From contig DUSS01000027.1 of assembly GCA_012842495.1 (NCBI GenBank), positions 1 through 64,000 of the forward strand: a stretch of DNA of 64,000 nucleotides. The letters are read 5' to 3'. The position numbers and the translations under genes are program-made. Origin of the DNA: Candidatus Fermentithermobacillaceae bacterium (lineage in GTDB: Bacteria; Bacillota; Sulfobacillia; Fermentithermobacillales; DUSS01). A model generated the notes under the pieces. That model did not search any database. It worked only from the letters and a program-made list of their open reading frames with translations, and was not told where the DNA came from. Shown piece by piece: positions 7,074 to 27,317 of the stretch (position 1 is its first letter; the number at the start of each line of letters is the position of its first letter).

Positions 7074-8681
7074 TCATACTACAGGTGCCGAGCGGCTTGC
7101 CCCCACGGTCCTCCTCACCGCCTCACCCGGTCTCCTGCCCGTGACCTCCCCTTCCCACAGAACCGGCTCTCCGTTTACGAAGACCGAGTGTATCCCGACC
7201 GGGTATTGCCAGGGGTTCTCATATGTCGCCCTGTCGATGATGAGGGCGGGGTCGAAAACCACGAGGTCCGCTCTGAATCCCGGACGCAGCAGTCCCCTGT
7301 CCCCTATGCCGAGCTTTCGCGCGGGAAGGCCCGTCATCTTGTATATGGCTTCTTCCATGCTGAGGACGCCGCGCTCCCGCGCGTAATAACCCAGGACCCG
7401 TGGGAAGGTCCCGACCGACCTCGGATGGACTTTGCCTTCCTCTGGAACGGCCACGTTCCCGTCGGTGACCACGGTGCTTTCCTTGAACTTCATGACCTCC
7501 ACGAGGTCTTCCTCGCTCATGGCGAATCTCACGATGCCCACGTCCATATCCTCTTCCAGGAGGAGATCGACTGCGGCCCGCGCCGGCGTCACCCCGAGCT
7601 GTCGCGCGATGGCAGCGATATCTTTTACCTCCATCCATTTGTTATCCGGCCTCGATACCCGGGTGATCACTACCTTGTCCCATCCGCCCTGAGCCAGGGT
7701 CCTCCGGTCCGCTTCCGCCTCCGCTTTCGTCCGCGTAGTTTCACCAGTGAGCACGGCCACGGCGCCGTCCTTGCCGTTTTCCAGCACCCAGTCCGGGAGA
7801 ACTATGGACAGCCCCGTGGAAGAAGCTAAATACGGATAGAAATCTGCGCTTACCTTAACTCCGTCTTTTGCCGCCGCTTCTATCATTTCCAGGGCCAGGG
7901 CAACTTTACCCCAGTTATCCGGACCGCAAGCTTTAAGGTGGGCTATCTCGAAGAACACCCCGCTGCGCCTTGCCACTGCGATGGCCTCCCGGACCGATTC
8001 GAGCAGTTCGGGGCCTTCGTTGCGGATATGAGATGCGTGGATGCCGCCGAGACTCGCCACACCTCGAGAAATCTCGGCCAGCTCCTCAACGTCAGCGAAT
8101 CTTCCGGGCACGTATTCAAGGCCGCTCGATATCCCGAACGCCCCTTCCTCGACCGCTCGAAGAGCTATTTCCCTCATGCGGGCTTTTTCTGGTTCATCCA
8201 GAGGCCTTCCCGAGTCCCCCGCGATGAGAGACCGGATCTCGCCGTGACCAACCAACGTAGCAACATTGACCGCGGGCCTTACCGCATCGACGGCGTCGAG
8301 ATACCCTTTGACCCCGTCCCACATTCGTTCGATTCCCGCAGCCTTAAGGCGCTCCCAGCGGGATTCGTCTTTTTGCTTCATGAAACAGGCGCTCGAACCG
8401 CAGTTCCCGACGACTTCGGTGGTTATCCCCTGCCGGACGAGGTTTGACGCTTCAGGATGGATGAGGACGGCGGTGTCGGAGTGGGAATGCATGTTGATGA
8501 ATCCGGGCGAAACCGCAAGACCGGGAAGCTCGATATGCGTAGTCTCCTCGGGAACGTCTTCACGGGGTATATCCCCGACCCGTTCGATGAACCCGTCCCG
8601 GACCAGGACCGAACCCTTTTTCGGTGGGCGGTTCTCGCCGTCGAAGATAAGGACCTGCGAAATCAGGTACGATCCTTTCAC
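7074..8681 (-). CDS. N-acyl-D-amino-acid deacylase (D-aminoacylase, amidohydrolase family)
   Basis: GTG at 8681 behind GGAAAGGAG; PGFINMHSHSDTAVLIHPEASNLVRQGITTEVVGNCGSSA. Confidence 0.9.
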   Translation of the reverse strand: MKGSYLISQVLIFDGENRPPKKGSVLVRDGFIERVGDIPREDVPEETTHIELPGLAVSPGFINMHSHSDTAVLIHPEASNLVRQGITTEVVGNCGSSACFMKQKDESRWERLKAAGIERMWDGVKGYLDAVDAVRPAVNVATLVGHGEIRSLIAGDSGRPLDEPEKARMREIALRAVEEGAFGISSGLEYVPGRFADVEELAEISRGVASLGGIHASHIRNEGPELLESVREAIAVARRSGVFFEIAHLKACGPDNWGKVALALEMIEAAAKDGVKVSADFYPYLASSTGLSIVLPDWVLENGKDGAVAVLTGETTRTKAEAEADRRTLAQGGWDKVVITRVSRPDNKWMEVKDIAAIARQLGVTPARAAVDLLLEEDMDVGIVRFAMSEEDLVEVMKFKESTVVTDGNVAVPEEGKVHPRSVGTFPRVLGYYARERGVLSMEEAIYKMTGLPARKLGIGDRGLLRPGFRADLVVFDPALIIDRATYENPWQYPVGIHSVFVNGEPVLWEGEVTGRRPGEAVRRTVGASRSAPVV

Positions 8682-8869
8682 GGTAAGACTCCTTTCCTCA
8701 ATAATCTGAACGTGCCCGTGGCACAATGCCCGGGGTCCGGCCTGAGTTTCTCTCTGGACCCTGCGGGCAACTGCCCGAACCGGTGCCCGGGGGCGAAACC
8801 ATTGTCCGTAAATACGTCGAAGGCAGCCCGCATCGGGCGCCGGTGAATAATGCTCGTACCCGTACCATC

Positions 8870-9793: not shown

Positions 9794-10185
9794 GGTGATC
9801 GCCTCCGAGGGGTAATTCGAGCAGGGGGCTCGCATTTCCCTCTGTATCGGACACCGGGACGGGACTGCGTGTATAGCTCGCGGGACCGTGTAGCCCCCGA
9901 TGGACGGCGCGGTTTCGGTTGCTCAGCTATACCGTTGCCTGCACTGGGTCCCGGAAATCACCAGCCGAGCTTCTATCTGACACCCAGCGTCCTCGGAAGG
10001 GCCAAACGACCGCCTGCAGCGCGGCACGGTACATCTGCTTGGCTTCCTCGCTTGTAAGGGACTATTTGAGCGAGTCGAACTCGATGAATTCCTTGAGATT
10101 CGACCACTTGGACTCGCCCACCGCCAGTGCACATTCGTCAAAATCCATGAGCGCAGGGATGTACCCAACCGATTGCATACCGGGA

Positions 10186-10430
10186 TGCGCTTGCCGACTC
10201 AAACTATACGGTCTTCCGACACCGGGCGCCATATGTTCGGCCCGTCCATCGGTTGCTCAATGGGTTCGCACCCTCCCTCCAACCTCTGCACCATCCTGTG
10301 AGCCAGCGAACCCGCAACCTCGCTCGGATTAAGCTCGAGCCACGCTGGGAAATTCTCAATTCTGTTGGTGATCGTAACGAAATCCCCATCCTCATCTCCT
10401 AGAGGTCCATTACCGCGAGGGCTTCCCTTA
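10186..10430 (-). CDS. Hypothetical small protein(s), possibly decayed
   Basis: Minus-strand frame ...GDEDGDFVTITNRIENFPAWLELNPSEVAGSLAHRMVQRLEGGCEPIEQPMDGPNIWRPVSEDRIV* has natural composition; start unclear. Confidence 0.3.
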
Positions 10431-11372
10431 CGTCGGGTGAAAACGGGTTGGACCAGCGAACCCAGATGATCAAGTCACCTTTCCGCGCGGCCCAGGCAAG
10501 GTCATATCGCTTACGAATCTCATGATTGGTAGTGTGGTAGTTTCCATAGTGCTCGGCTCCTTCCGACCAGTCTCTAACAGACCTTGCCTGCGCATTGAGC
10601 ATCTTCGTGGCGCTGACAGGGGACCATGTTCGCGTACCTCGGGCTTCCGGCTTTCTAACCAGACATTCCGGAGAATAGCCTAATTCCTTGTCTTCTCAGC
10701 GAAGATCCTTCTTGGGCGATGTGGATCTTACTCCGACGCTTGGCGCTGGCTAGGTGGACGGACGAGTCGTGGCAACAATGTCCGTTGCCCCACTCTGACT
10801 AAGCGCTAGAGGACAGTGCGATGAAGAAGAAGCCTCAATGAAAATGCAGACAAGGAAATCTTTACTTGTAAATAGAATTACTCCTTTAGAATGAGTAACA
10901 AACGCGACCGATTCGGCAGCTCGATGCGGGAACACGAAGGTTAGAGCATATGCTCGAGTGGTAAGGCCGAGGACTCTATTGGCCACTGCGACATCCTGTG
11001 AATCGGACTAGGACACCTAAGCTGGGAATCTGTTGCGGGCGCACTTGGACACGAACAGAAACGAGGCAGGTACACGGTAACTGTCATCAACCCTACCTTA
11101 CGGAGTGCTGGTGCGTCGAGTCCACCCGAGTGTCCGATGTTGTGGCCCCACAAGCGGATGGCATTAGCACGAGAAACTGGCGAACGCGTTCCGGTAATTA
11201 GAGATGACGTCCTTGTGAGCTGCGAGGGCGTGCTATTGTGTGTTCGTGAAATGACAACCAATGAAATGGCGTGACCGGAGCCTGATGGTATCGGCGGTTG
11301 GTCCCCGCTCCTGAAAAGGCATCAAACAGGGCACCTGTCTTCTTTCAAAGGAGGAAGGGAGGACGCGCAACA

Positions 11373-12884
11373 GTGCAGGTGGGACGAAGGTGGCAACACG
11401 TTCCAAAGGAAACCGCTGCCGCGATTCGTGGGTACTTACTTAGAGAGGGCGGCATCGAAGACCCACAACTCCGAGGAGCTGCCGAAGTCTGGCGAATCCG
11501 CTTCTCGGAGGCCACCTTCACCTATTACGCGTCCGGTACGCTGTATTCGACGCCGTCTCAGGACCCGGCTGTAGTCAATGCCTGGGAGTACGTTACATCT
11601 CTTACTGGACCCAGATTCGAGCCGGCATGCAAGAACTTTATGGTCGGGCTAGATGAAACAGGCAAAGGAGAAATAATCGGTCATACAGTGTTAGCAGGCG
11701 TTCTGATTCCCCAAGAGCTGACTTCGGATCTTGAAAACATTGTCTCAACTGCGGATACAAAACGAAGACGGACGTTCCAATATTGGGACGAGCTTTTCAG
11801 GCAGATCGACTCCCTGAAACCAAGGGGGTTAGAATTCACTGTAGAGAGGATACCCCCCTGGCATGTGGACCGATATAACTTGAACAAGATCATGGACGTA
11901 GTCTATCAGCGGATTCTGTCCAACTTCTCTAGACGCGCGGATCTGTCTCAGTCTCGTGTCGTAGTTGATGACTATGGAATTGGCCACACCCTCGATCGTT
12001 ACCTGCGCGCTCTTCAGAACCGAGGTTGTGAGGTCGTCATCGCCACTCGAGCGGATGACCTGTACCTCGAGGCAAAGGCAGCTTCGGTTATCGCCAAGAG
12101 GGAACGTGAAAGAGTCATGGAAGGTCTCCGGGCTGCTGGAGAGTTTCAAGTAGGCAGATGCACGGTGGGCAGCGGCAACGCCACAGATACAGAAACGATT
12201 AACTGGCTCAAAGCGTGGAAGGAAATGGGAAGAGAATGGCCGTGGTTTGTCAAGCGATCATTCAAGACTGTAAGAGAGTTCGAGGGTCTCACGAGTGCGG
12301 TCACAAAGCAATCCCCACCCATACGGGACGATATTCTCTCTCCTGAGTTCCTCCGGGAGTTCGAAACAGGGAGACTGTCTATTTCCAGCCTTTCAGTGGT
12401 CTGCCCAACATGCGGAGAAGTGAGTAGGGCGGCACTCATCACGCCGGACGGCAAGGATGGCTTCAACGCCAGGTGCGTCAAATGCCGGAAACCGCTCGAC
12501 GATCTCGGTATCACTTTGCGTTATTACTGTGGTTACCTCCTGCCTGATAGTAACGTAATAACGGGAGGTCTACTCGGAAAAGACCTTAGCCACTCCCGGT
12601 TGTTCGAAGGTTTCACCATTCTTATTCACGCCACAGTACGCCGCGAGTGCGACACTCCGGGCGGGAAGAAAGAGCTGGAGCGATTGGCATATTTTGGAGC
12701 AATCGGGAGGATTGGTTTGGAAGAGGTTGGAACCGTTGTGGAGTCAAACAGCACTATTGACCGCGACCAGGCCATTTTCTCATCCGCCCTAGAGTACAAT
12801 GCTATCTTGTTCACCGATGATAACAACATGAAGGCTGCCGCACAGGCTAGAAAGATGTTTACTTTGTCCACAAGATGGTCATAA
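11373..12884 (+). CDS. RNase HII/HIII-like domain fused to a zinc ribbon and a C-terminal PIN domain
   Basis: GTG at 11373 behind AAAGGAGGAAGGGAGG; RNase H2 motifs GLDETGKGE, VVVDDYG, ADDLYLEAKAASVIAKRERERV, VGSGNATDTETINWL; zinc ribbon CPTC...CVKC; PIN acidic motifs PDSNVI, TVRREC, DRDQAI, FTDDNNMK. Confidence 0.8.
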   Translation: MQVGRRWQHVPKETAAAIRGYLLREGGIEDPQLRGAAEVWRIRFSEATFTYYASGTLYSTPSQDPAVVNAWEYVTSLTGPRFEPACKNFMVGLDETGKGEIIGHTVLAGVLIPQELTSDLENIVSTADTKRRRTFQYWDELFRQIDSLKPRGLEFTVERIPPWHVDRYNLNKIMDVVYQRILSNFSRRADLSQSRVVVDDYGIGHTLDRYLRALQNRGCEVVIATRADDLYLEAKAASVIAKRERERVMEGLRAAGEFQVGRCTVGSGNATDTETINWLKAWKEMGREWPWFVKRSFKTVREFEGLTSAVTKQSPPIRDDILSPEFLREFETGRLSISSLSVVCPTCGEVSRAALITPDGKDGFNARCVKCRKPLDDLGITLRYYCGYLLPDSNVITGGLLGKDLSHSRLFEGFTILIHATVRRECDTPGGKKELERLAYFGAIGRIGLEEVGTVVESNSTIDRDQAIFSSALEYNAILFTDDNNMKAAAQARKMFTLSTRWS

Positions 12885-13093
12885 CGGAATTCGATGAGAA
12901 CCTTGGGGGAGTGCGCATCGGCATCGAGAGGTTACAGCATTGTGTATGACTCGGACAGCTGCACTCGCAGAACGGGTGCAGTAGTCGGACTGCCAGGGAT
13001 GTTGGCACGCAAGTCCAAGGGTGACCCCAACAGGACCCGGGACACGGTACTGCACGCCTACGAAGTAGAGCTGGGAAGGAATGGATATTGTGT

Positions 13094-14251
13094 ATGACAG
13101 AAATACATGTGAGTAGTTCTGTCCTGCAATGGGCACTGCAGCGCTCAGGCAGAGCTTCCAAAATTCAGTACAAGTTTCCCAAGATCACCGAATGGCTAGA
13201 GGGTAAGAGCTACCCCACGATGCGGCAGCTGGAGGCTCTGGCCAACGCAACTTTGACCCCACTCGGCTATTTCTTTCTCCCTGAACCACCCGAGGAACGG
13301 CTGCCGATCCCTTATTTCCGCACGCTCGGCGGCGAGGGAACGTTGAGACCGAGCCCAGAACTCCTTGAGACGGTGCACATGATGAAACGTCGTCAGGCAT
13401 GGATGCGCGAGTATCTTGTTGAGCAGGGGCATGAACCGCTGCCCTTTGTGGGCTCGGCGAAATCGACAGACGACCCACGCGAGGTCGCAAGAGAAATCAG
13501 AGCCACACTAGGTCTGCGAGAAGGATGGGCATCTGGACAGCGAACTTGGACAGCCGCGCTCCGCATGTTGCAGAATAGCGCAGAAGACATAGGCATCATA
13601 CTGGTAGTCAACGGAGTCGTGGGGAACAACACTCACCACAGACTTGATGTTGCGGAATTCCGCGGGTTTGTACTGGTTGATGAGTACGCACCACTCATCT
13701 TCATCAATGGAGCAGACGGCAAGGCCGCCCAGATGTTTACGCTCGCCCACGAGCTAGCTCATGTATGGTTGGGGAATAGCGCCGCTTTCGACTTGCGTGA
13801 ACTCCAGCCTGCCGCGGACAGGAATGAGCAGGCGTGTAACCAGGTGGCTGCAGAATTCCTTGTTCCAGCGGATGACCTTTACCGGATTTGGCCCCTGGTT
13901 CGTGCTGACCCAGACCGGTTTCAGCAAGTGGCTCGGTTGTTCAAGGTAAGTGAGCTGGCTGCAGCCCGTAGGGCCCTAGACCTCGGACTCATTCCGAGGG
14001 ACGAATTCCGTGAATTCTATCAAACCTATCAGGAACGCCAGAACGTCTCCATCGTTAGGCCCAACGAAGGTGGGGATTTCTACGCGATGCAGAACTTGCG
14101 AGTTGGGCGCCGGTTTGCAGAGGCTGTGGTACGTGCTGTCAAAGAAGGAAGACTTCTTTACCGAGAAGCGTACCAGCTGACCGGGCTTTATGGAAAGGCA
14201 TTTGCTCGGTACGCTCAACTAGTTAGCTCGGGAGAGATGCCGCAACTGTGA
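13094..14251 (+). CDS. ImmA/IrrE-family metallopeptidase with N-terminal XRE-like region (antitoxin candidate)
   Basis: FTLAHELAHVWLG (HExxH) zinc motif; N-terminal ITEWLEGKSYPTMRQLEALA. Confidence 0.85.
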   Translation: MTEIHVSSSVLQWALQRSGRASKIQYKFPKITEWLEGKSYPTMRQLEALANATLTPLGYFFLPEPPEERLPIPYFRTLGGEGTLRPSPELLETVHMMKRRQAWMREYLVEQGHEPLPFVGSAKSTDDPREVAREIRATLGLREGWASGQRTWTAALRMLQNSAEDIGIILVVNGVVGNNTHHRLDVAEFRGFVLVDEYAPLIFINGADGKAAQMFTLAHELAHVWLGNSAAFDLRELQPAADRNEQACNQVAAEFLVPADDLYRIWPLVRADPDRFQQVARLFKVSELAAARRALDLGLIPRDEFREFYQTYQERQNVSIVRPNEGGDFYAMQNLRVGRRFAEAVVRAVKEGRLLYREAYQLTGLYGKAFARYAQLVSSGEMPQL

Positions 14252-14742
14252 CCCCGGCTTATGTACTGGACGCTAACGTGTTTATTGAGGCTGCCGAAAG
14301 GTATTACGCTTTTGACCTTGTCCCAGCCTTTTGGAATGTACTGGTCGAGCAGGCCGCAAAGGGCCGGGTGCTAAGTATTGACCGCGTACGACAAGAAATC
14401 ACCCGGTGCAACAACAGTCTCGCGGACTGGGCGAACAAGGAGTTCCAAAACTGGTTTGCCCGATCTGATGAGCAGCGTGTAATCAGAGCGTACCAGGACA
14501 TCATGACTTGGGTTTATCATCAGAACCAGTTCTTCGACTCTGCCAAATACGAGTTCGCCAGTGGTGCGGATGGTTGGTTAGTGGCATACGGGAAGGCCCA
14601 TGGGCATGTTGTGGTAACCCATGAGCAGTTCAGACGGGACATCAGGAGGAGAATTCCTATTCCGAACGTGTGCGTAGCTTTTGGGGTTCCGTTTGTGGAT
14701 ACGTTTACCATGCTCCGACAGCTGGGAGTGAAGCTCGCTTGA
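14248..14742 (+). CDS. DUF4411-family PIN-domain protein (toxin candidate)
   Basis: AYVLDANVFIEAAERYYAFDLVPAFW, GADGWLVAYGKAHGHVVVTHE; GTGA overlap with the ImmA stop. Confidence 0.85.
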   Translation: MTPAYVLDANVFIEAAERYYAFDLVPAFWNVLVEQAAKGRVLSIDRVRQEITRCNNSLADWANKEFQNWFARSDEQRVIRAYQDIMTWVYHQNQFFDSAKYEFASGADGWLVAYGKAHGHVVVTHEQFRRDIRRRIPIPNVCVAFGVPFVDTFTMLRQLGVKLA

Positions 14743-14872
14743 GGCATGCTATGGTTCTCGGCAAAGCATAACAAATAGGCGGTTGGGTCATGGATAGGAA
14801 CGCCGCTTGAGAACCGGTTCGTCCGGTGTGTCTACTCGCGGTGACGTTTATTTGGGTTCAGTACAGATTCTC

Positions 14873-14926
14873 GATCCTTTCACGGTAAGACTCCTCTCCG
14901 CCATCTGAACCTGCCCGTGGCACAAA
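14873..14926. repeat. Diverged copy of the D-aminoacylase leader/start region at 8671-8726
   Basis: GATCCTTTCACGGTAAGACTCCTyTCC...ATCTGAACsTGCCCGTGGCACAA present at both loci. Confidence 0.8.
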
Positions 14927-14943
14927 AGATACAGACCCGACCA

Positions 14944-15675
14944 TTAGCGGTTTACGATTGTAACCATATCTAAATCCAAACCCTGACGCTGTATTTCAAA
15001 CCGTTTAGATTGCCTTATAGCCGCCACCGAAATATCCAGGTGAAACGGAAAAGCTGAAGGTAGCTTTGGCAATTGTTGCAGGATCGCCATTGGAGTGGAT
15101 TCTGAATGCAACAGGGCTTCCAAAAACCATAATTGAACACTACTATCGCTGGCCGGGCCTTTTTTGGCAGCGGGGATATAAACACCTTTTACGGGCGTAT
15201 CCTGGAGAACGCCCCAGTCTACCATCGAACGTACCACTCGTTGGCTCGCCCGGCGAACAGTTGACCTTTCCCCCCACCGCTCCGCCAGCCGACGGTAAAT
15301 CTGCTCTAGAGAAACTTCATTCTGCAGTGACAACAGACGACCAATAATATCAGCTATATCGCGAAAAAATGGATATGCCACAAGCGTCATGCCCCAGTGC
15401 AACCAGAGTCTTGTATCGGGGCCGTCCTCGGTTAAAATTCCTAAAGCCTGCTCCTGCAATGACCGGTGCTTCTGCGGTACCCTGGCCCAAATCCGAGTTA
15501 GTACGGTTATGGTCTTCCTGCGTGCCTCTCTACTTCGACATTCCGGCTGCAAGAAATCATCAAGGTACTTCCGCACCTCAGTAATATCTGTTTCCGTTGC
15601 AGCTTTCCAAGCGGCGGCATCCAGCCATTCCAGCTTAACTCTCCGGTCAAAACCGATATTTAATGCCATGATCAA
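14944..15675 (-). CDS. brxA: BrxA-like protein of type 3 BREX
   Basis: About 240-aa protein ending the BREX operon; size and position fit BrxA. Confidence 0.65.
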   Translation of the reverse strand: MIMALNIGFDRRVKLEWLDAAAWKAATETDITEVRKYLDDFLQPECRSREARRKTITVLTRIWARVPQKHRSLQEQALGILTEDGPDTRLWLHWGMTLVAYPFFRDIADIIGRLLSLQNEVSLEQIYRRLAERWGERSTVRRASQRVVRSMVDWGVLQDTPVKGVYIPAAKKGPASDSSVQLWFLEALLHSESTPMAILQQLPKLPSAFPFHLDISVAAIRQSKRFEIQRQGLDLDMVTIVNR

Positions 15676-17627
15676 TGCTCCTCCCGAATCCTTACAAAAG
15701 GAACGACAACCTCTTCCAAAGATATTCCGCCGTGGCTTACGATTTCTTCACCCTTTGAGACAAAGGCCGACCGGCCCCTGGCCAGTAGAACGGAGTAACC
15801 CTGGGGTAAACCAAAACCAGGCCAACATATGGCATTTTCTATTTCTTCCATCATCTGCTGTTGAAAAACTTCGTAATAATAAATTCTGGCCCGCTCACCG
15901 CGGGACTCAGCCAGGACTCCGTCCGGCAAACGGCCCATCCCCCTGGCCGCAATATTACCGTGATCCGAAGTCAGATACACGGCAAATTTGTTTTTAAGGA
16001 GATGATCAATTAGCTGTATCAGGTAACCCTGTTCGGCCCAAAGTCTGATTTGTTGGTGCATACCAGCTGTTCCCATCTCCATGCCATGCATGATTCTGTC
16101 CACTTTATCTATAACCAGACCCACGATCTCGAACTGTGATCCCAAGAATTCTCCAATTTCACTTGGCAACTCGTCACCCAAACCTTTACGGTAGTAGGTA
16201 TTTCCTCTCCTGACAGCGCTGTCTTCCCAAAATTTATGCCAGTGCTGTTCTTCTTTCGAGGTTGTGGTTAGAGTGTCCTTGAAATACAGGGGCGGCTCTG
16301 CAGCGAACAGCGCCTGCCGTGAGATAGAAGTTAAGGTCGGTACCCAGGCAAAGACCTGGTTTTCCTCGAGTCGCCACGCCGGGCACCTGCCTCTCAGGGA
16401 ATTGCGGATAACCAGCCATTGATCTAATGCCAGGCCGTCAACTACGAGCAGAGCAATGTTTTTTACTCCTTTTTTGGCGCGTAGATAAGCCAGATAACGG
16501 GGTATGTGATGCACCATTATCGGTTTGGACGTGTAAGAAAGGTTGGCCAAAGAACCGTAGCGCACGAGCATCCAGCTCGCAAAGCGCTCTTCCAATTGAT
16601 CGTGCAATTCTTCAATTTGCGGTTTACTTTCAGTTTTTATGTCCTGATTGAGTCCCCCGTCAAGCACAAGCAATTCTGCCCACAGAACGGCCAGGCGCTG
16701 CCAATCCCTGTGGGATGCTGTCTCTCCAGGCAAATCTTGTCGTATCTTCTCTAGCAGCCACTTGATCCTGCGCCTCTTCTCAGCCTGCTTATCGAAAAGC
16801 ACCCCTGCCCGGACCCACCCGGGCATACCTTCCGTACTAGCAACCGGAACAGGCCTTAAATTTCCTTCCAAGAACAGGTTGTCGATGTAAACCCGTATAT
16901 CATAATGGTCAAAGGGAACCTCGGTGAATTTCTCTCCTCTGGCCGTGCTTTCCAGGAAGCGACGCCATTTTTCTTGTAGAAAAGCAAAAAAGGCTTCCCT
17001 GCTGGGGATGATGTCTTCCAGCGGCCAGTTCTTAAAAACGCTCTTTTCTCTTAAACAATGGATAAGATGTTCGTCCAAAACCCTTGGCACAGTCACAAAG
17101 TTACAATGCCGCGATAACAATATCTTCATCAGTTCGACCGGTGAATTGATAAGGTCGGGTATTATTCCAAAAACGTGTTTTAAGATAAAATCCTTGGTTG
17201 CCTTCTCCCCCAGCACAGGACCATTGTAATCCTGGTACGCCCTGTAAAGCTTCTCCAGGTCTGACCTCTCCACAGCTGCAACTACCGGATAGCTGAGTTT
17301 GGGAAAGATATCGGCCAGGCTGAAGAAAAGCTTATGGCTCCTCTGCCATACATCGAAGGGGAGGCGACGCAGTTCCTGCGGGCCGCCCTGTACCACCACT
17401 ACCAAATGTGCCGCTTCGCCCCGATCCCACCTGGAGCGATAGTTTGCTTCATACGCATATCGAAAGGTGATGGGATCACTAAAGGTAAGGACATCGAGCC
17501 CCATTTCCCCTAAGGCCGAGAGAACATCTTCTTCCAGCAGCAAGCCGTCGGGGTCAGCCACTAAAGTAAGCTTTGCTACGCCTGGCTGTAAGTTTTTAAG
17601 AATGTGATCACGCCAGTTCACGGTCAT
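15672..17627 (-). CDS. pglZ: BREX alkaline-phosphatase-like protein PglZ
   Basis: NIALLVVDGLALDQWLVIRNSL, YLTSDHGNIAARG metal-site motifs; ATGA overlap with brxHII. Confidence 0.88.
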   Translation of the reverse strand: MTVNWRDHILKNLQPGVAKLTLVADPDGLLLEEDVLSALGEMGLDVLTFSDPITFRYAYEANYRSRWDRGEAAHLVVVVQGGPQELRRLPFDVWQRSHKLFFSLADIFPKLSYPVVAAVERSDLEKLYRAYQDYNGPVLGEKATKDFILKHVFGIIPDLINSPVELMKILLSRHCNFVTVPRVLDEHLIHCLREKSVFKNWPLEDIIPSREAFFAFLQEKWRRFLESTARGEKFTEVPFDHYDIRVYIDNLFLEGNLRPVPVASTEGMPGWVRAGVLFDKQAEKRRRIKWLLEKIRQDLPGETASHRDWQRLAVLWAELLVLDGGLNQDIKTESKPQIEELHDQLEERFASWMLVRYGSLANLSYTSKPIMVHHIPRYLAYLRAKKGVKNIALLVVDGLALDQWLVIRNSLRGRCPAWRLEENQVFAWVPTLTSISRQALFAAEPPLYFKDTLTTTSKEEQHWHKFWEDSAVRRGNTYYRKGLGDELPSEIGEFLGSQFEIVGLVIDKVDRIMHGMEMGTAGMHQQIRLWAEQGYLIQLIDHLLKNKFAVYLTSDHGNIAARGMGRLPDGVLAESRGERARIYYYEVFQQQMMEEIENAICWPGFGLPQGYSVLLARGRSAFVSKGEEIVSHGGISLEEVVVPFVRIREEH

Positions 17628-20464
17628 GCACCTTCTATGCAAGTAATGGTAACGGCGCCAAGTTCCGGCAGGATTTTTTCCTTCTGCTTGAGCCGCAGGG
17701 CCCATTCTTTCTCTTCGCGTTCCAGTTCGGCCAGGCGGTGCTGGCGCACGGCGGGCAGGCCAACCTTCATAATGGCCTGCCGGCGAATTTGGAACGCATA
17801 CTGGCCTTTTTCCCGCTCTTTCTGCAGGTGCTCTTCATAATGGTTCTTGAGCTCCAGGAAAAGGTTATGCCCGTATCGTACAGCCTGTTTCTGGAGCTTC
17901 GCAAAGATTTCCTCCGACTTTTCGCCTGTAATATAACCCTGGATTTCGAGGGGGGTTTCTTCCTGTAGTAACAAATCCCATATCCTGTGTGCGGTGGGTA
18001 TGAGTATCTTGGCGTCCTTTTCCTGCTGGAACAAGGGTAGAACTCGAATCTCACGCATGTTTTCCGCTATGAGAGATATCCGCCATAAAGACCAGTAGCC
18101 GCTTATCTCATGCGGCAGTCCTTTGAGCCTGACTTTCGCAATGGGCTGTCCCGCCACGATCAGGGGCAGGCGGGAGACCAGCCCGCGAATTCTCGGTTCT
18201 TCCAGGCTGAGATAAGACATTGAGTGCTTATCTGCTTCCTGTCGGCAGAAAGTCACGTCCTTCATAGTGAAGCCGTCGGGCCAGGTTAAATCATAACCTG
18301 CCAATTTGGGCTTCACCACGCCGCCTTCGCTTACCAAAAAGTTAACGGTCATGCGCTCTACCCAGTACGGAAGCGGATGGCCGGAAATCTTGTCCACCAG
18401 ACGGGAATCAAGCTGTTCGTCTTCTCCCAAAAGCTGGTTGGCCGTAGTTACTTCCTGGATGCGCTGCCGCAGAGAAGCCTCCAGCCGTTCAACACGGGAC
18501 TCAACTTCTTCCGGGCTGAGGATAGCCTCTTTATACAAATTCTCGAAATCGGATGCCATCTCGGCCGAGTCGAGAACATCGCCCATCTTGTCAACGCCGA
18601 AATCCGCCAGGATTGCGGCCAGTTTTTCCTGCAGGACTTCCTGCACCCGGTATTCAACAGTGTCCTGCAGGACGAAGTTGAGTGCCCGGACAACGTGTTC
18701 CTGGCCGATGCGGTCCACCCGGCCGATGCGCTGCTCAAGGCGCATGGGGTTCCACGGCAGGTCGTAGTTGATGACCACGTGGCAAAACTGCAGATTCAAG
18801 CCCTCGCCGCCGGCATCAGTGGATACAAGCACCCTGGCGGGACCGGCAAATTCCTGCTGGACCCTCCGCCTTTCTTCCAGCCCCATGGACCCGTTTAGAC
18901 AAACGACACTAAAGCCCCTGTTTTTCAGAAACTCCTTGAGCATCTCCTGGGTCGGAATGAACTCTGTAAAGATGAGAAACTTGAGCTCGGGGTCGTTCTC
19001 TTCGGCCTGCAACCGGTACATCCACTCCAGCAAGGCTTCGGCCCGCGCGTCGGGCAGGGACTCGCACTGACGTGCCAGGAACAAAAGACGCTTGACCTCT
19101 TCCCGTTCACTGGCGAACGCAACTAAACGGTGCTTCAGAATTTGCTCGAGCTGCTCCTGCCCGTCAAGGTCCCACCAGTCTTCTTCCAGCTCTATTTCAC
19201 TGTCAATTTGAAACGGAGCTTCTTGTTCGATCACTTCCAGTCTCCGTCCCAGGGCGGTCCGGATTGCTCTGGTGCTGCTGGCTACCAGGCGCTGCATGAG
19301 AACCATCAAAAAGCCGATATAGTTTCGCTTTTCTTTCAGCGCCCGGTTGTATCCTTCCCGCACATATTCCGTCACCGCCTCGTATAGTTCCCGCTGCATC
19401 TGATGCCGCGACTGCCACACCACCGGCACTAGCTGGGTTCGGCGCGGCTTAAATAACGGCTGACCTTTCTCATCAATGGCCCGGCGTTTTTCGGTGCGGA
19501 TTACGTACGGAGGCACTCTCTCCCGATTTATGGACTCGACGCTGGGAAAAGCCTCCCTATCGAGGAGAGCCATGAGCCGGTGGAAGGAATCAGTTTTCCC
19601 CTGGTGGGGCGTCGCCGTGAGAAGGAGAAGATACGGTGCGGCTTCAGCCAGCCCCTGACCGAGGCGGTACCTGGCGACGGTATCCGTGCTGCCAGCAATT
19701 CTGTGAGCTTCATCTACAATAATCAAATCCCAACCCGCAGCGATAAGGTTTTCGAAGCGTTCCCGGTTATAGCGGCTTACCTGGTCTCTGCTCCACCCCC
19801 GGCGCGATTCCAAAGGTTTTATGGCGTCCATGGGAACAATGACCTGGTCAAACCGCTGCCAGACGTTGGCATCCCATTCAAAGCACAATAGAGCGGTGAT
19901 CCCGGCGGGCATCAGCAGGTGGAAGCGTTCCCGAAAGCGGTTTTCCATTTCCTGCACCCACTGCATCACGAGGCCCTTCGGCGCCACCACTAGCGTGCGC
20001 CTGACGAGCCCCCTGAGCTTCAACTCGCGCATGATTAAACCCGCTTCTATTGTTTTGCCGAGGCCGACCTCGTCAGCCAAAAGGTACCGGACCCTGCTCT
20101 TGGAAACAGCCCGGGAAAGGGCGTAGAGCTGGTGGGGCAGAGGAGTGACGCAGCCTTCGAGAGGCGCCAGCAGGATATCCGAATGGGCCAGGCTTTCAGC
20201 GATTCGGGCCGCGGCGACGGCGTAAATCAGCCTCTCCCGGCTGGATATGCCTGCCTCTGTTATCGAGGATAATTCGTTTTCCTGAAGGCGCAAAACCGCA
20301 TCCCGGTCCGGCACCCAGACGCGGTAGACGTTCTTTCCCCACAGGTCCAAGGCTTCGATAACCTTTACCGGTTCACGATACTCCGGGCTCCAGGCCCAGT
20401 CACCGGGCCGCCATCTGGCATCCCGCCTCAAAGCCGACACCTCACCAGCCGATAAATCATTCAT
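17624..20464 (-). CDS. brxHII: BREX type 3 SNF2/DEAD-like helicase
   Basis: LLADEVGLGKTIEAGLIMRE, IIVDEAHRIAG, LLTATPHQGK, DLPWNPMRLEQRIGRVDRIGQ. Confidence 0.88.
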   Translation of the reverse strand: MNDLSAGEVSALRRDARWRPGDWAWSPEYREPVKVIEALDLWGKNVYRVWVPDRDAVLRLQENELSSITEAGISSRERLIYAVAAARIAESLAHSDILLAPLEGCVTPLPHQLYALSRAVSKSRVRYLLADEVGLGKTIEAGLIMRELKLRGLVRRTLVVAPKGLVMQWVQEMENRFRERFHLLMPAGITALLCFEWDANVWQRFDQVIVPMDAIKPLESRRGWSRDQVSRYNRERFENLIAAGWDLIIVDEAHRIAGSTDTVARYRLGQGLAEAAPYLLLLTATPHQGKTDSFHRLMALLDREAFPSVESINRERVPPYVIRTEKRRAIDEKGQPLFKPRRTQLVPVVWQSRHQMQRELYEAVTEYVREGYNRALKEKRNYIGFLMVLMQRLVASSTRAIRTALGRRLEVIEQEAPFQIDSEIELEEDWWDLDGQEQLEQILKHRLVAFASEREEVKRLLFLARQCESLPDARAEALLEWMYRLQAEENDPELKFLIFTEFIPTQEMLKEFLKNRGFSVVCLNGSMGLEERRRVQQEFAGPARVLVSTDAGGEGLNLQFCHVVINYDLPWNPMRLEQRIGRVDRIGQEHVVRALNFVLQDTVEYRVQEVLQEKLAAILADFGVDKMGDVLDSAEMASDFENLYKEAILSPEEVESRVERLEASLRQRIQEVTTANQLLGEDEQLDSRLVDKISGHPLPYWVERMTVNFLVSEGGVVKPKLAGYDLTWPDGFTMKDVTFCRQEADKHSMSYLSLEEPRIRGLVSRLPLIVAGQPIAKVRLKGLPHEISGYWSLWRISLIAENMREIRVLPLFQQEKDAKILIPTAHRIWDLLLQEETPLEIQGYITGEKSEEIFAKLQKQAVRYGHNLFLELKNHYEEHLQKEREKGQYAFQIRRQAIMKVGLPAVRQHRLAELEREEKEWALRLKQKEKILPELGAVTITCIEGA

Positions 20465-23132
20465 CCATCCGCATCAGGGCATTGTCGTAGTACATCAGGA
20501 GGCTTGAGTCTTCCTGAAGAACAGTATCCGGTATGCGCTTGGCCACCTCTACGATGGTCTTGTAATCTTTAGCCGCCCAGCAGGCCTTAAATCCCGCCCG
20601 CAGCGCTTCGGTCCGGAACACTTTGAGCCTGCCCCCGCCTTCTTTATATTCTTCGAACTCTTTGAGGAGGGACTTCTCGCGCATCTTCTCCAGGTCAGAC
20701 TGCCTGCCGGGGTCGGGGACGTACCAGCGGCCGCTATCGTCTTTAAGGAAGTTCTGCTCTAAAAGCTCGGAGAGCTCCGGCAGCTTTTCGTGCGGCGCTT
20801 TGTGCAGTTCCCGCAGGAACTTTGGGTAGATTTCCTGGTAGGTCTGCGGCTTCTTTGAGAGTTCACTGCGCAGCCACTGGATGGAAGACTTTTCATCGGT
20901 TACAAAAATAGATAATTGCTCAATCTCCCGGACCGTAAAGCGCTTCTTATCATACTCCACTACCTGGTCGGGGAGGAAGTACATGCCGTCTCTTTCCGGG
21001 AAGCGCTGTCTTAAACCGGCGTAAAACTCCGCTGCCCCCATAGGTACGGCAACTCCCCGCTGGACGTGGAAGGCCACCATCCGGTCATAGAGCAGGTAAT
21101 TTTGCCGCTCGGCAATGACCTCCGCTTTGCCGTTTTTCTCCACAAAGACCGGCAGCTGTTTGAGATGGGTGCGAACAAAATCCCAGACTCCATCTTCGGT
21201 CCCCGCCTCAAGATGAAAGCGCTTTTCCAAACCGCCGTTGGGCTTATAGGCGGAGATGACCAGGTCCTGCTTCACCGCGGTTGTATAACCAATTTTAACT
21301 TGGTTGAAGGTCCCCTGCTTTTTGTCCAGGGTCCGCACGTCGGCAATAACAAAGCCCGCCCGCATAATGGCCTCCTGGATGGCATTCCAGATCCGGTTCT
21401 GCGAATTGTGAAACACCACCGTCATCCACCGGCCGGACTTTAAGACCCGGTAGTACTCAGCAAAGCACCTTTCCATGAGCTCCTGGTATTCCCGCGGGCC
21501 TTTGCCCTGGGCTTTGTTTTCCACAGCTTCGGGCTTATTATTGGTAAAAACCCTGAGCCAGGCTTCCCAGAGGAAGTTGAGCTCGGAATACATGAGATTG
21601 CTGCCGAAGGGGGGGTCGGTGAAGATGTAGTCAATTGTATTCACCGCTATCTCGTGCATTGAAGTCGCTGATTGTGTGGATACAATGCTACATAAGTGGA
21701 TCTGTTGTAGTGCGCTCTTGATTAAGTCAACCTTCATATTTCGTAAACCCAGTATAATGTTTTTCTCCACCGGAAGAGAGCTGACATATAAAGTACCGGA
21801 TTGATTCCCAGTAAGTAGAGGTTTCTGTCCCTTCTTAAAAATAATGCGAGTCATTAGAGTACTGTGTGTGGCATTGTACGATTGTCTTACAAACTCTAAC
21901 TTATTCTTAAGTGGGATCTTAGTTGCATTGATTAGTCGTCCCAAAGTGGCCAACACCCACAAATTCCGCCTGGTGTAAAAATGGTGAACATGAGTAATTC
22001 CCACATTTAGAGGGTCTCTTGTCTTCTCCCCTTTTGGAAGCGGATCAGTAGGATACCAGTACGGTATCGCGCTCTCCTCGATCTTCCGGATCAATTCCAG
22101 GTCGTACCCGTCGGGCTCTTTCTCATACCTCTTATTCCCCACAGAGTAGTTAATAAGCACCGGCACCCGGCGGGCACGAGTGATAAACTCCCCAATTTCC
22201 CGGTCGTACACCCTTTCGGTAGCCCTTTCCAGTGAACGCTTAGTGAGATTGGCCCCGCAGTGGGGGCAGGGAAACTCGTCCCGGACTTTACCTTCTTCTT
22301 TATCTACCGCCACTTCCCAGAAGACAAGCTCTCCGGAACAGCTGGGGCAGATAAACACGGCGGACCAGACGGTGTAGTTGATTTTCCCCATCACGGGGTT
22401 GCCCTTTGCGTCTTTCTGAACTTTCCCATCCACCACGTGCGGCGTCCGGTACATCCAGCCGCATTCTCTTTCCACTTCGTCCAGAATCCGCCCGGCTTCC
22501 CGCTCAAAGGCCCGAACATCTACCGGCGTGTTGTAGTTATAGGCAATGAAGGTGGCGGCAGGGGAGAGGTCGATGAGTATGGCCTTACGCGCTCCCAGCT
22601 TGGAGAAAGGCTGGCCTTTTTCATCGAGGATGGTGCCATCATCCTGCACAATATAACCCAGGGATTCTACGGCCTTGCGGTCCCCGCACAAACTCGCTGC
22701 AACGCCGGTCATGCCCGTGCCGCAGAAACCGTCAAAAACGATGTCTCCCGGCTCGGTGTAGTGGAGGATATAGCGCATGATGGCCCTGTGGGGCACCTTG
22801 GTGTGATAGGAATGGGCGTTGTAAGTAGGATCGTTCTTGCCCTCCGATACATCCGCTGCAAAAGGCTGCCGGCGGTAAGCATCGTTATCTGGGTCGTACG
22901 GCTTGCCGTGCTCTTTGATAAAATCCCCTATGAACGGGTTCGGGCAGGCCGTGTAATAGGGCGGGTCGGAAAGGTTGATGATGTCCTCATCTTTGGCAAT
23001 GGGGAATCCCTCGATATGCCTCACCCGGTCCAGGTGTTCCTTGGTAAGCCGGAAACGTGAACGTTCTTGCCGTTCCCTTCCTTCTCCGTTCCCTTCCGGC
23101 GTATCCATGAAAAGTTGTTCTTCTATGGCCAT
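20457..23132 (-). CDS. pglXI: BREX type 3 adenine-specific DNA methyltransferase
   Basis: NLSDPPYYTACPNPF, DIVFDGFCGTGMTGVAA, DYIFTDPPFGSNLMYSELNF. Confidence 0.85.
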   Translation of the reverse strand: MAIEEQLFMDTPEGNGEGRERQERSRFRLTKEHLDRVRHIEGFPIAKDEDIINLSDPPYYTACPNPFIGDFIKEHGKPYDPDNDAYRRQPFAADVSEGKNDPTYNAHSYHTKVPHRAIMRYILHYTEPGDIVFDGFCGTGMTGVAASLCGDRKAVESLGYIVQDDGTILDEKGQPFSKLGARKAILIDLSPAATFIAYNYNTPVDVRAFEREAGRILDEVERECGWMYRTPHVVDGKVQKDAKGNPVMGKINYTVWSAVFICPSCSGELVFWEVAVDKEEGKVRDEFPCPHCGANLTKRSLERATERVYDREIGEFITRARRVPVLINYSVGNKRYEKEPDGYDLELIRKIEESAIPYWYPTDPLPKGEKTRDPLNVGITHVHHFYTRRNLWVLATLGRLINATKIPLKNKLEFVRQSYNATHSTLMTRIIFKKGQKPLLTGNQSGTLYVSSLPVEKNIILGLRNMKVDLIKSALQQIHLCSIVSTQSATSMHEIAVNTIDYIFTDPPFGSNLMYSELNFLWEAWLRVFTNNKPEAVENKAQGKGPREYQELMERCFAEYYRVLKSGRWMTVVFHNSQNRIWNAIQEAIMRAGFVIADVRTLDKKQGTFNQVKIGYTTAVKQDLVISAYKPNGGLEKRFHLEAGTEDGVWDFVRTHLKQLPVFVEKNGKAEVIAERQNYLLYDRMVAFHVQRGVAVPMGAAEFYAGLRQRFPERDGMYFLPDQVVEYDKKRFTVREIEQLSIFVTDEKSSIQWLRSELSKKPQTYQEIYPKFLRELHKAPHEKLPELSELLEQNFLKDDSGRWYVPDPGRQSDLEKMREKSLLKEFEEYKEGGGRLKVFRTEALRAGFKACWAAKDYKTIVEVAKRIPDTVLQEDSSLLMYYDNALMRMDE

Positions 23133-23146
23133 AACTCTTCACCCCT

Positions 23147-26100
23147 CTATTCCAGAACGATCCTTACTTTCTGTGGATCCCTGCCGCGCGTGAGAGACTG
23201 GATATAATCCTCAAAGCGCTGTTGAAACTCAGATACTGTGCAGGGCGTTCCGCCTTGAGCCAAAGCTTTCTTTAAGTCAGCTGCGGTGACCGAAACCTTT
23301 TCCATGCCGGACAGCACTTCCTGAACGGCTTTTATAAATGATGCGTCTACCATGTACGGCAGCTGCTGTTCTTTGATCACCTGCTCCAGCGCTTTCTGCT
23401 GCTCCGGCTTCAAAAGATAGACGTTTTCCTTCACCGTGGGGTCTTCCAGGTTGGCGACCAGTGTCTTTTCCCAGTCCTCGTACAGCCTTTCGAGGTCTTC
23501 CTCCAGCTGCCTGAGCACCGCTTCAGCCGAAAGCTTAATCTGCTCCTGTGCCGGACGGTAGTTGCAGTAAGGACAGATGGGCGTTTTTTCCAAGTCCTCT
23601 CTGGTGAGGCTGAAGCAGGTTTTCAGCTGCGCCAGACGGTTTTGGAAGTCAGTAAGCTGGGCCCGGGGCATCAACTCGATACCGGCCAGCCTGCTGAGTT
23701 TCCCTAATCGCTCATCTTTGAGAAGTCCGGATTTCTTCTGGTCTAAAGACGCATTTAATCTGGCTTTGGTATGGGCCTCAAGGTAAGCCTCAATGTAAGA
23801 ATTCTTGAGCTCTAAGAGCACCTGCACGAGCTCCCGGCGAAGGTCAGGGACGGATGCTTCGTCCAGGCCGAATAGTTTTCCTTTGAGTTCTTCACGCCGC
23901 TCCCGGGCTTTTACCGTCCAACCGGCATCCGCAGGGAGCACGGCCTCGGCGGTACCGAGGTAGGAGAGCAAAGGCTGAATCTCATTGGCCAGGCCGGCCA
24001 GTTCTTCAACCCTCTTCAGGGTGGCAAGGTACGCCTTCTGCTTATTTATATCCCGCTCGGAGTAGCGGAAGTTTTTCAACTTCCCGGGAGTGTTAAAAAC
24101 CCGGAGTGACTCCAGAAACCCTTTGAAACTGGCCAGTTCATCCCTTAAACCGGTTTTCTTTTTCTCATCGAAGAGAGAAATACCCCATAAAGATAACTCT
24201 TGCTGGATGGCCTGCTGGGCCTGGGCGGTGCGTTCCAGGAGCTTATCCACTGCTTCCTGAAGCTGCCTTACCCCTTCTTCACGAGTAGATTGATTGACAA
24301 TGAGCCCGGGCGGCAGCCCCAAAAATTCAAACAGAACCTGCAGCGGACCAAGAGGAAGATCCTTGGGACGCTCGATGTGTTTGAACTTGATAAGTTCCTC
24401 CAGGGGAACTTTGCCGAGCTCCTCCAGGTTGGAAGCGTCTATCTTCTTCCCCAGCATGCTTAAAGTAACATCGCCGCTGTAGATCAAGCTCGCCAGAGTG
24501 ACGACCACCCACTCTGGTTCCAATCTGAAACGGGGCTCGAACTCTACACCGCGAAAATCGACAATTATTTCACCCCGGTTGAGGACCTGACCCGGGCCCT
24601 TTTTGTCCAGCTGTTCCAGGATCCATCTGGCATAACGGGAATTTTGCGGCCTTAACTTATCTCCGTCCAGAAGCTCCAGGGCATCGAGGACGGCTGCCCC
24701 CGGTCTGGTCTTGATGCTGCCGAGGATCCACCTTATCGCCTCCTGGGCAGCCTGAGGACGGTTCTTTACGGTAACCAGAATAGAGAAGGCCGGATATTCG
24801 GGCGCCAGCTCCTGGAAGTAAGGCGCCAGACAAAGGGAACCCACCAAGTTTACAAGATCCCGAACCGAGGCATGAGGAGTGGCACTGTGCTTAACCCACT
24901 CGACGAATTTCTTGCTTGCTCCCCGGTAGGTAACTTCGTAAGCCGTGGTGATGTTGTTCCGCAGCCATTCGACTATCTTCTTTAACTGCTCGTTGGCCTT
25001 ATTTTCATAAACCTGCCGCGTTCCTTTCGAAGCCGTGCTGGCCATCTCGCAGGCGCCGGCGAAGAATTTCAGGGCACGGTCAAAATCCTCGTCACGCTGC
25101 ACCAGCCGGAAAAACACTTCATCGGGCTTTTTTTCGTCTTCAAAGGCCGGCGGGTCAAAAGGCTGCAGAAAGTATAGATAAAAGTCCCTGGGCGGGTGGG
25201 CGGTAGAACGTTCGTTGGGAGCGCCGAAGAATAAATACCCTAACCGGGTAGCCTTTTTCTCGCGCCACTCAATTTCGTGCTCCCAAATCTGGAAATTGGG
25301 GACATACGTGGCTTCGGGGCACTCCATGGCCCGGGCGAGGGCCTTAAAATAGTAGCGGTCCAACTGGTTCGGGGTAAGCGTGTCGGCTTTCTGCTCAATT
25401 AGCGAATCAAAATCAATGTCTTTTTTCAGGTCAAGGTAGTACTGCCCGTTGTCCTGGTTGAAAGAAATAAACTGGCCGCTCACCGTCCTTAAGATCTCGC
25501 GCAAGATTGATTCGATAGTGGTTTTAAGAAACTCGGCATCCTCTTCCGGCAAGGGCAGGTAAAGGCAGAGGTCATCGCGGAGTTCTTCAGCCGTGGCCCC
25601 TATTGGAGCGTAAGCATCTCCTGTTGTCAGCCGGTGAACGCTCAAAGCGTGAATGATGCGGAGGGCCACAGGCTTATACTGCGGCCTTGTAAAGGCCTGC
25701 TGGACACGGTATTCCAGCACCTGGCTCTTCTCAATCACTTCGCGAATGTCCGGATCGCTGCGGAAAGAGGGATTGTCCTTTAAGTTTTGCCAGTAAGAGT
25801 CATAAGCGATGAGGCCGGGGTCTGTTTCCGGGACTTCTTTGTCCAGGAGTTTTTTCATGGCAAGACTTATGGTTTTCAGCACCTCGCGCTTTTCAGCTAC
25901 ATAGACCCGCTCAAAAGTTTCAAGGTATGCCGGATGCACGGGGAAAAGAGCGACGAATTCGTCCATGCGCTCGGCCAGGGTGCCGTATAATTTGGTGAAA
26001 CGCTGCAGGTGCTCCCTTATGAGGGCCTTCTGCCTGTCATCCTTGCGCAGCAGGCGCTGGGCAACTACGTAGGCTATGTCTTCACGGACAATTCGTATCT

Positions 26101-26827
26101 GCTCAAAACGGTCTTTGACCCGGCGCAGGGTTTCAGCCACAAACTGAAAGCGCGGGCTGTCGAAAATGGCTTCCTGCACACCCGCCATGAAACGAAACCG
26201 GGTGAGCCGGCAAACCTCTCCGATTTCTCGCAAGAAGTTTAGGTCGAGGATCAGCTCCTGGTCCTTCCGAGTACGTAGGTAGTCCAGGAGTTCATCGACA
26301 ACCAGCAAGAGCCCGTGATCCGGGTAAACTTCCTGGAAAGCGTTCATCATCTCAATGAAAGGGTCTTTGTTGTTGGTAACTTTATCGGCTTCAGGAAAAC
26401 GGTATTTCACCCCGAGATTGGCCAGTTGTTCTTCCAGCTCGGCACAAATGATGTTCCTGAGGGACATCGTGGTGGAACCTATCTCGGTCCTAATAACCTT
26501 GAACTTGCCGGCGATAACCTCAGATTTTTTAGCCACGGCAGGATGCCGTATCTCCGTGACCAGGTCTGGATATTCGGCTATAGCTGAGAGCACCGACATT
26601 AAATGTGATTTACCGGTACCGTAGTTCCCAACAATTAAAATCCCCTTATTATCCTGGGGGTGGTCGTACTGGAGCTGTGGAAAGACAACTTCCGTAATCT
26701 GCTCGGCCATTCGTTCCGAGATCACATAGCTTTTTATCAGCTCACCGGCCCTGCTTTTGGCGTCAGCTTCCCGCAACTGCACTATAGTTTCCACCGGTTC
26801 AAAATGTATGAGGTCAGCGTATTTCAC
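23147..26827 (-). CDS. brxC: BREX large P-loop ATPase (DUF6079-like)
   Basis: GILIVGNYGTGKSHLMSVLSAIAE Walker A, LLLVVDELLDYL Walker B; GTG at 26827 behind AGGTGGGG. Confidence 0.85.
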   Translation of the reverse strand: MKYADLIHFEPVETIVQLREADAKSRAGELIKSYVISERMAEQITEVVFPQLQYDHPQDNKGILIVGNYGTGKSHLMSVLSAIAEYPDLVTEIRHPAVAKKSEVIAGKFKVIRTEIGSTTMSLRNIICAELEEQLANLGVKYRFPEADKVTNNKDPFIEMMNAFQEVYPDHGLLLVVDELLDYLRTRKDQELILDLNFLREIGEVCRLTRFRFMAGVQEAIFDSPRFQFVAETLRRVKDRFEQIRIVREDIAYVVAQRLLRKDDRQKALIREHLQRFTKLYGTLAERMDEFVALFPVHPAYLETFERVYVAEKREVLKTISLAMKKLLDKEVPETDPGLIAYDSYWQNLKDNPSFRSDPDIREVIEKSQVLEYRVQQAFTRPQYKPVALRIIHALSVHRLTTGDAYAPIGATAEELRDDLCLYLPLPEEDAEFLKTTIESILREILRTVSGQFISFNQDNGQYYLDLKKDIDFDSLIEQKADTLTPNQLDRYYFKALARAMECPEATYVPNFQIWEHEIEWREKKATRLGYLFFGAPNERSTAHPPRDFYLYFLQPFDPPAFEDEKKPDEVFFRLVQRDEDFDRALKFFAGACEMASTASKGTRQVYENKANEQLKKIVEWLRNNITTAYEVTYRGASKKFVEWVKHSATPHASVRDLVNLVGSLCLAPYFQELAPEYPAFSILVTVKNRPQAAQEAIRWILGSIKTRPGAAVLDALELLDGDKLRPQNSRYARWILEQLDKKGPGQVLNRGEIIVDFRGVEFEPRFRLEPEWVVVTLASLIYSGDVTLSMLGKKIDASNLEELGKVPLEELIKFKHIERPKDLPLGPLQVLFEFLGLPPGLIVNQSTREEGVRQLQEAVDKLLERTAQAQQAIQQELSLWGISLFDEKKKTGLRDELASFKGFLESLRVFNTPGKLKNFRYSERDINKQKAYLATLKRVEELAGLANEIQPLLSYLGTAEAVLPADAGWTVKARERREELKGKLFGLDEASVPDLRRELVQVLLELKNSYIEAYLEAHTKARLNASLDQKKSGLLKDERLGKLSRLAGIELMPRAQLTDFQNRLAQLKTCFSLTREDLEKTPICPYCNYRPAQEQIKLSAEAVLRQLEEDLERLYEDWEKTLVANLEDPTVKENVYLLKPEQQKALEQVIKEQQLPYMVDASFIKAVQEVLSGMEKVSVTAADLKKALAQGGTPCTVSEFQQRFEDYIQSLTRGRDPQKVRIVLE

Positions 26828-26858
26828 CCGTATTTCCCCACCTTTTCCTGAAATCTCT

Positions 26859-27317
26859 TTACCCCAGAGGACAAATAAGGGCATCGATTTCATGATACTT
26901 TCTGTACTCCGGGTGATCCGGCTCGGCATAGATCAGCGCACCACCCTCGAATTTGCCGTTCCATGCGGCAACGATAGTTCGATTTCGGCTGACTTGTTGA
27001 AGTAAACGTAAAGGGTCCTGTTGAAGAACAGGATCAAAAAGTATTTCTGTGTTATCGAGAAGCAACGTATCCTTTCCCGTTTCGCCTATGATCGTCTCCA
27101 CTATTCTCGGCAGGCGTAACGTTCGCATTCTTGCGGGGTATTCCAGGAGTTTCTGGCTCAGCATAAGGCTCAGATTGATATAGGGATAACCCTCATCTTT
27201 TGCTATTTGAACAAGGATTTTGGTTTTTCCGGTTGCAGCTGACCCGACCAGTAAAACCAGTCGATGATACCTCGACCGGGCTGCTGCTATTTGTTTTTTG
27301 AGCTCATCTGTTTTCAT
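26859..27317 (-). CDS. brxF: BREX type 3 small P-loop protein
   Basis: LVLLVGSAATGKTKILVQIAKDEG; about 150 aa, directly upstream of brxC. Confidence 0.85.
   Translation of the reverse strand: MKTDELKKQIAAARSRYHRLVLLVGSAATGKTKILVQIAKDEGYPYINLSLMLSQKLLEYPARMRTLRLPRIVETIIGETGKDTLLLDNTEILFDPVLQQDPLRLLQQVSRNRTIVAAWNGKFEGGALIYAEPDHPEYRKYHEIDALICPLG

Follow-up and report, generated by a model that had tools for sequence, protein, structure and literature searches.

The gene at positions 11373-12884 (+) of the window, by which we mean the whole analyzed stretch of 64,000 nucleotides of Candidatus Fermentithermobacillaceae bacterium DNA, encodes an intact protein of 503 residues made of four parts, in order an N-domain of the RNase HIII type, a type 2 RNase H domain, a zinc ribbon, and a PIN domain. 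On these assignments the searches by profile, PDB, and fold concur, and the ORF and its homologs confirm the fusion. Because this rare fusion is spread between distant bacteria and archaea and adjoins phage-defense genes, the protein is probably an undescribed defense effector.

The reading frame opens with a GTG at 11373 and runs uninterrupted to its stop codon at 12884, as the earlier note on this DNA had stated. The GTG agrees with the starts of the homologs (x-G-R/K-x-W) and is preceded by a probable ribosome-binding sequence, AAGGGAGG, at 11355-11362 (+). A chance ORF is ruled out by full-length homologs that are 50-55% identical, with synonymous changes saturated and amino acids constrained. 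Two genes joined by read-through, or a misassembly, are also ruled out, as several unrelated contigs, as well as L056 with its 2.17 Mb, carry the fusion intact. None of the PADLOC, Pfam, and NCBIfam models is named for the protein as a whole, the viral fold library gives no match below 0.001, and among PHROGs there is a weak match to one family with function unassigned. The AlphaFold model, computed from an input alignment of seven rows, has a pLDDT of 79 and a pTM of 0.73. Scans for promoters and terminators gave signals at about chance level, and there is no Rfam match in the window between 9 and 15 kb. The roughly 1.45 kb that separates the PRPP synthetase gene from the fusion gene (9836-11297) contains no convincing gene and no Rfam match.

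The TBP-like N-domain (residues 1-85, 11373-11627, +) is of the RNase HIII type, as a family profile of residues 1-140 matched RNase HIII (3vn5, 6.7e-8; 4py5, 5.5e-4) and no RNase HII. In the alignment its Y52 takes the place of Tyr43, the residue of Thermovibrio RNase H3 that stacks on DNA. Three other RNase H3 residues, Glu27, His28, and Gly52, are not retained, Gly52 standing opposite Pro61 in our reading of the alignment, and hence hybrid binding by this domain could be altered. The type 2 RNase H catalytic domain (residues 91-303, 11643-12281, +) is identified by Pfam, NCBIfam, fold, alignment, and tree. Pfam RNase_HII matches residues 91-300 (1.2e-19), and the two NCBIfam matches fall below their cut-offs, both for RNase HII (TIGR00729, 94 bits, cut-off 123.3) and for RNase HIII/RnhC (TIGR00716, residues 38-245, 43.7 bits, cut-off 161.2). 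The fold search with the AlphaFold model returned RNase H3 with RNA/DNA (4py5, 2e-11), and also RNase HIII and archaeal RNase HII. In a tree built on a small sample of 22 catalytic-domain sequences, the RNase H domains of the fusion form a clade of their own (ultrafast bootstrap 100), outside RNase HIII and both groups of RNase HII.

The active-site carboxylates D94, E95, D199, and D228 are retained in all nine intact members of the family (position 228 being D or E), residue 229 is also acidic in the nine, and the same holds for D128/K130 of the DSK type. Within the motif DETGKGE (residues 94-100), the family has E100, the glutamate that follows G-K-G as in RNase H3. Residue 269 is an asparagine in 9/9 intact members, at the place where archaeal RNase HII reads GSGY; the tyrosine of this motif we take to be the junction tyrosine of the human and archaeal RNase H2 enzymes. 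Another tyrosine, Y231 (in "DLY"), was ruled out as the junction tyrosine, since the alignment puts the latter in GSGY, which has Asn here. In Thermovibrio RNase H3, the glutamate following G-K-G touches two 2′-OH groups, and the tyrosine with which RNase H2 selects RNA-DNA junctions occupies the same spatial position (PMC4132731). An RNase H2 has been engineered that keeps its hybrid activity and loses its junction activity (cited in PMC4132731), and in these residues the fusion family resembles it. Because the RNase H3 glutamate is present and the RNase H2 junction tyrosine is absent, the domain should cut the RNA of RNA/DNA hybrids rather than act at single ribonucleotides.

The zinc ribbon (residues 344-371, 12402-12485, +) is defined by C344, C347, C368, and C371, which are retained in each of the nine intact members. 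The PIN domain (residues 388-503, 12534-12881, +) is assigned by profile, by fold, and by the acids D392, E425, D465, and D483, invariant in these nine. No Pfam PIN model matched the C-terminus; in the comparison of its profile with the PIN domain of MJ1533 (3i8o) all four catalytic acids align, at a value (0.0047) that is weak by sequence alone, and the fold matches are 3i8o (E 8e-4, TM 0.69), 1o4w, and 3ix7. These results agree with the earlier note on the TBP-like N-terminus, the zinc ribbon, the C-terminal PIN domain with its acids, and two nuclease centers that are intact by their residues, and checking the parts separately by profile and fold assigned both the RNase H2/H3 and the PIN folds. 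Of the RNase H2 acidic motifs that the note had listed, the carboxylates stand, and "VGSGNATD" is the junction-tyrosine site with its invariant N269. The hybrid-cleaving nuclease that it had proposed is present as a domain and is refined here: its specificity residues are RNase H3-like, and it belongs to a clade of its own among RNases H2/H3.

The family is small. A scan of 84,980 genomes gave eight near-full-length relatives, searches of genome samples added two (L021 and L056), and the 10 homologs have the identical four-part domain order. Homologs at 50-55% identity occur in both archaea and bacteria, and the hosts are sparse: Archaeoglobus/Geoglobus, Thermoplasmatota, Thermotogae, Rhodothermus, Dehalococcoidia, and Thermodesulfatator, with the host labels of five copies on short contigs (L006, L008-L010, and L013) coming from metagenome binning. 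In the phylum to which the window belongs, 1 of 300 genomes has the fusion, and in groups chosen because they hold relatives the numbers are 3/295, 2/247, 1/251, and 2/103. It is absent from both sister species, and no relatives were found in phage, plasmid, and viral-contig collections. A profile of the PIN part met no case of this part without the RNase H part in about 600 genomes.

The gene has passed horizontally across the divide between bacteria and archaea. A Thermoplasmatota archaeon and a bacterium from the Thermodesulfatator phylum sample show 90% identity, and between Rhodothermus and Thermodesulfatator the DNA is 89% identical in the fusion gene and 95% in the adjoining serine recombinase. 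The recombinase element common to these two bacteria (L007 9929-12568 and L012 55-4505) contains a GmrSD insertion in just one of them. Purifying selection is seen on every domain of the fusion wherever dS is measurable. In the archaeal trio dN/dS is 0.06-0.11 over the gene and 0.06-0.29 in the PIN part, and these low values indicate that both nuclease parts are maintained. Two of the 10 homologs are frameshifted, in Thermodesulfatator autotrophicus (L012, 579-612) and on a Thermoplasmatota contig (L013, 5126-5149), as expected of a dispensable or costly gene, or of sequencing error.

Clear defense neighbors occur at 7 of the 11 loci, the window included, a raw count that has no background rate to compare with and in which three Hma cases are related. 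The neighboring systems are of five kinds, namely type III BREX, Hma/BR, DrmD/HNH, GmrSD, and HEC-01. In the window, a complete type III BREX (BrxA, PglZ, BrxHII, PglXI, BrxC, BrxF; 14944-27317, -) lies on the opposite strand, convergent with the fusion gene. The fusion gene lies outside this BREX operon and is not a conserved member of such operons: the system of the window has its own six genes, and no homolog of the fusion adjoins BREX elsewhere. Between the two lie genes for an ImmA/IrrE (Peptidase M78) protein (13088-14251, +), matched by the RmrA and CapP models, and for a PIN-like DUF4411 protein (14248-14742, +), which overlap by 4 bp and likely form a toxin-antitoxin pair (13088-14742, +). 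A small antitoxin at 12894-13097 was considered and ruled out, having no family match and no conserved counterpart. With regard to a dedicated antitoxin of the VapBC-like kind, no neighbor is common to the 11 loci.

The closest association is found in archaea. In L008 and L009 a DUF1156 methylase gene (HmaB-like) lies immediately upstream of the fusion gene, with stop and start codons that adjoin or overlap, and in L010 the same arrangement, an HmaB-like gene that abuts or overlaps the fusion gene from upstream, is followed by a PIN-like/UPF0175 pair, a DUF499 ATPase, and an SNF2-NOV_C helicase, this neighborhood being an Hma or Type-1 BR operon. The pair within this operon (1893-2641) consists of a PIN-like toxin and a UPF0175-like antitoxin. 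These three contexts represent one related Hma lineage, and as other copies of the fusion lie outside Hma, it is at most an accessory of the Hma/Type-1 BR system. Elsewhere, L011 has a DrmD-like helicase (1e-144) and a restriction-type methylase upstream and an HNH protein downstream, L012 has GmrSD and the serine recombinase, L021 has HEC-01A/B, and L056 has a helicase with weak likeness to PbeA. A transposase adjoins the copy of L006 and a recombinase that of L007, and there is no recognized defense gene at the L013 locus. The defense link proposed from the window thus reaches beyond it, and the homologs with their tabulated neighbors bear it out. The standalone action that the earlier note had thought plausible may not hold, the gene being operonic with an Hma methylase in three archaeal contigs, and the window's ImmA/DUF4411 pair does not recur beside the homologs.

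The site itself has features of its own. In a sister species (G002, L052 1459-8698), genes for Mrr, an HmaC/DUF499 ATPase, and an HmaB methylase lie beside the PRPP synthetase gene, and their presence at this equivalent flanking site indicates a defense hotspot. The window also contains an imperfect direct repeat of about 55 nt (8670-8726 and 14872-14925), whose second copy, between DUF4411 and BrxA, duplicates the start region of an amidohydrolase gene (7074-8705, -). The two copies enclose the PRPP synthetase gene, the fusion gene, and the ImmA pair, and the repeat is probably a recombination scar.

Among known proteins, RNase HIII/RNase H3 (RnhC; Thermovibrio 4py5, Aquifex 3vn5) shares with the fusion the TBP-like N-domain, the DETGKGE-type site with the 2′-OH-binding glutamate, and the lack of a junction tyrosine, and is its best fold match. 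It differs in that the C-terminal half of the catalytic domain of the fusion is nearer to archaeal RNase HII, and the fusion adds a zinc ribbon and a PIN domain, forms its own clade, and lies in mobile defense loci. Archaeal RNase HII and eukaryotic RNASEH2A are the top sequence matches of the catalytic domain and share its GSG-x and F/W-K-T C-terminal motifs, whereas the fusion has Asn in place of the junction tyrosine and Glu in place of Pro after GKG, and its hosts encode a separate ordinary RNase HII. The PIN proteins MJ1533 (3i8o) and AF0591 (1o4w) have the same fold and the four catalytic acids, but no RNase H fusion.

Defense systems provide a second set of comparisons. In 2013 it was proposed that TBP-like or RNase H modules fused to toxin RNases target RNA in the DNA-RNA duplexes of invaders (PMC3710099). 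Like the two-headed RNases of conflict systems, the fusion has two RNase domains with intact predicted active sites and defense-linked loci; unlike these and RNase LS (RnlA), which are HEPN proteins (PMC3710099), its second head is PIN and its first a type 2 RNase H, and whereas RNase LS has a partner antitoxin, no conserved one accompanies the fusion. The main text of a survey of BREX and BR loci (PMC12839542) proposes PIN and HEPN endoRNases as backup suicide effectors and makes no mention of RNase H. Such auxiliary endoRNases lie, as the fusion does, beside or inside the operons of BREX and Type-1 BR (Hma) loci, and differ from it in that the fusion carries two nuclease centers. The fusion would thus fit the PIN/HEPN and two-headed RNase kind of effector, by analogy, while differing in both heads. 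No description of an RNase H2/H3-PIN fusion was found in the literature searched, which took in few subscription papers and no bioRxiv preprints, nor in the model libraries, in line with the earlier note, to which no described system of this architecture was known.

Two putative RNA-cutting centers in one chain are supported as anatomy; we infer the substrate class of the two nucleases, and our view of which hybrids are cut, of which nuclease acts first, and of the outcome of infection is a guess. It is somewhat probable, in our judgment, that the protein is a horizontally mobile two-headed ribonuclease effector, auxiliary or backup to the DNA-targeting systems of defense islands, an antiphage or antiplasmid role being suggested through guilt by association. 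The N-domain and RNase H part would act on RNA/DNA hybrids, binding them and cutting the RNA strand in the manner of RNase H3, without nicking at single ribonucleotides, and the zinc ribbon and PIN domain would cut single-stranded RNA. The targets might be hybrids made by the invader (replication primers, R-loops, reverse transcripts) together with the attached RNA. Acting most likely beside Hma/BR, BREX, DISARM-like, and GmrSD systems, the fusion would block replication or expression of the invader, or stop the cell.

The retention of the RNase H catalytic residues throughout the family would be needless in a pure sensor, and we find it unlikely that the protein is a hybrid-gated suicide switch, in which RNase H mainly senses and the binding or cutting of hybrids licenses PIN to destroy cellular RNA in abortive infection. 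Such a switch would suit the suicide role proposed for PIN and HEPN endoRNases in BREX and BR loci, as well as the lack of a conserved antitoxin beside the 11 copies, which implies that control lies within the protein or in its trigger. The gene could also serve a mobile element itself, through primer or copy-number control or competition between elements, and lie in islands because elements accumulate there. The serine recombinase that travels with it at 95% DNA identity in Rhodothermus and Thermodesulfatator, joined in one of them by GmrSD as additional cargo, and the transposase of L006 speak for this; yet phage, plasmid, and viral-contig collections lack a match and in archaea the gene is translationally linked to that of the Hma methylase, and we consider this quite unlikely.

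The other RNases H of the hosts bear on whether the fusion is a variant RNase H3 of the housekeeping type, one that clears away R-loops or primers, uses PIN for trimming, and spread by chance. Ordinary RNase HII is encoded on another contig of the window genome and in all but one of the eight homolog genomes scanned. RNase HI occurs alongside the fusion in three genomes (G354, G358, G359), so that the fusion is not a simple RNase HI substitute, and the window genome and its sister species have a partial RNase HI-like match. The undetected RNase HI of the Archaeoglobus, Geoglobus, and Thermoplasmatota hosts would suit a housekeeping role, as would an N-domain and active site of the RNase H3 type. 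Since these genomes have an ordinary RNase HII of their own, and in some cases RNase HI as well, this role is disfavored; the extremely patchy distribution, with absence from the sister species, the separate clade, the adjoining recombinases and defense genes, and two frameshifted copies, unlike an essential gene, also stand against it, and we hold it to be highly improbable.

A bolder proposal, which we regard as doubtful, is that the RNA/DNA hybrid is itself the infection signal: a naturally hybrid-only type 2 RNase H, whose clade joins bacterial HII, archaeal/eukaryotic HII, and HIII as the fourth, would sense and cut the hybrids of invaders and unleash or steer the tethered PIN domain on attached or bulk RNA. 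Primers of phages and plasmids, R-loops, and reverse transcription all involve such hybrids. If this is true, BREX and Hma loci would be predicted to have an RNA-level second line fused into a single protein. The fusion family would be a source of heat-stable, hybrid-specific enzymes, and this fourth branch of type 2 RNases H, in which the junction determinant is naturally missing, a tool to separate hybrid cleavage from ribonucleotide excision. In bacteria and archaea of thermophilic and anaerobic life, defense islands would then hold an effector that reads RNA/DNA hybrids.
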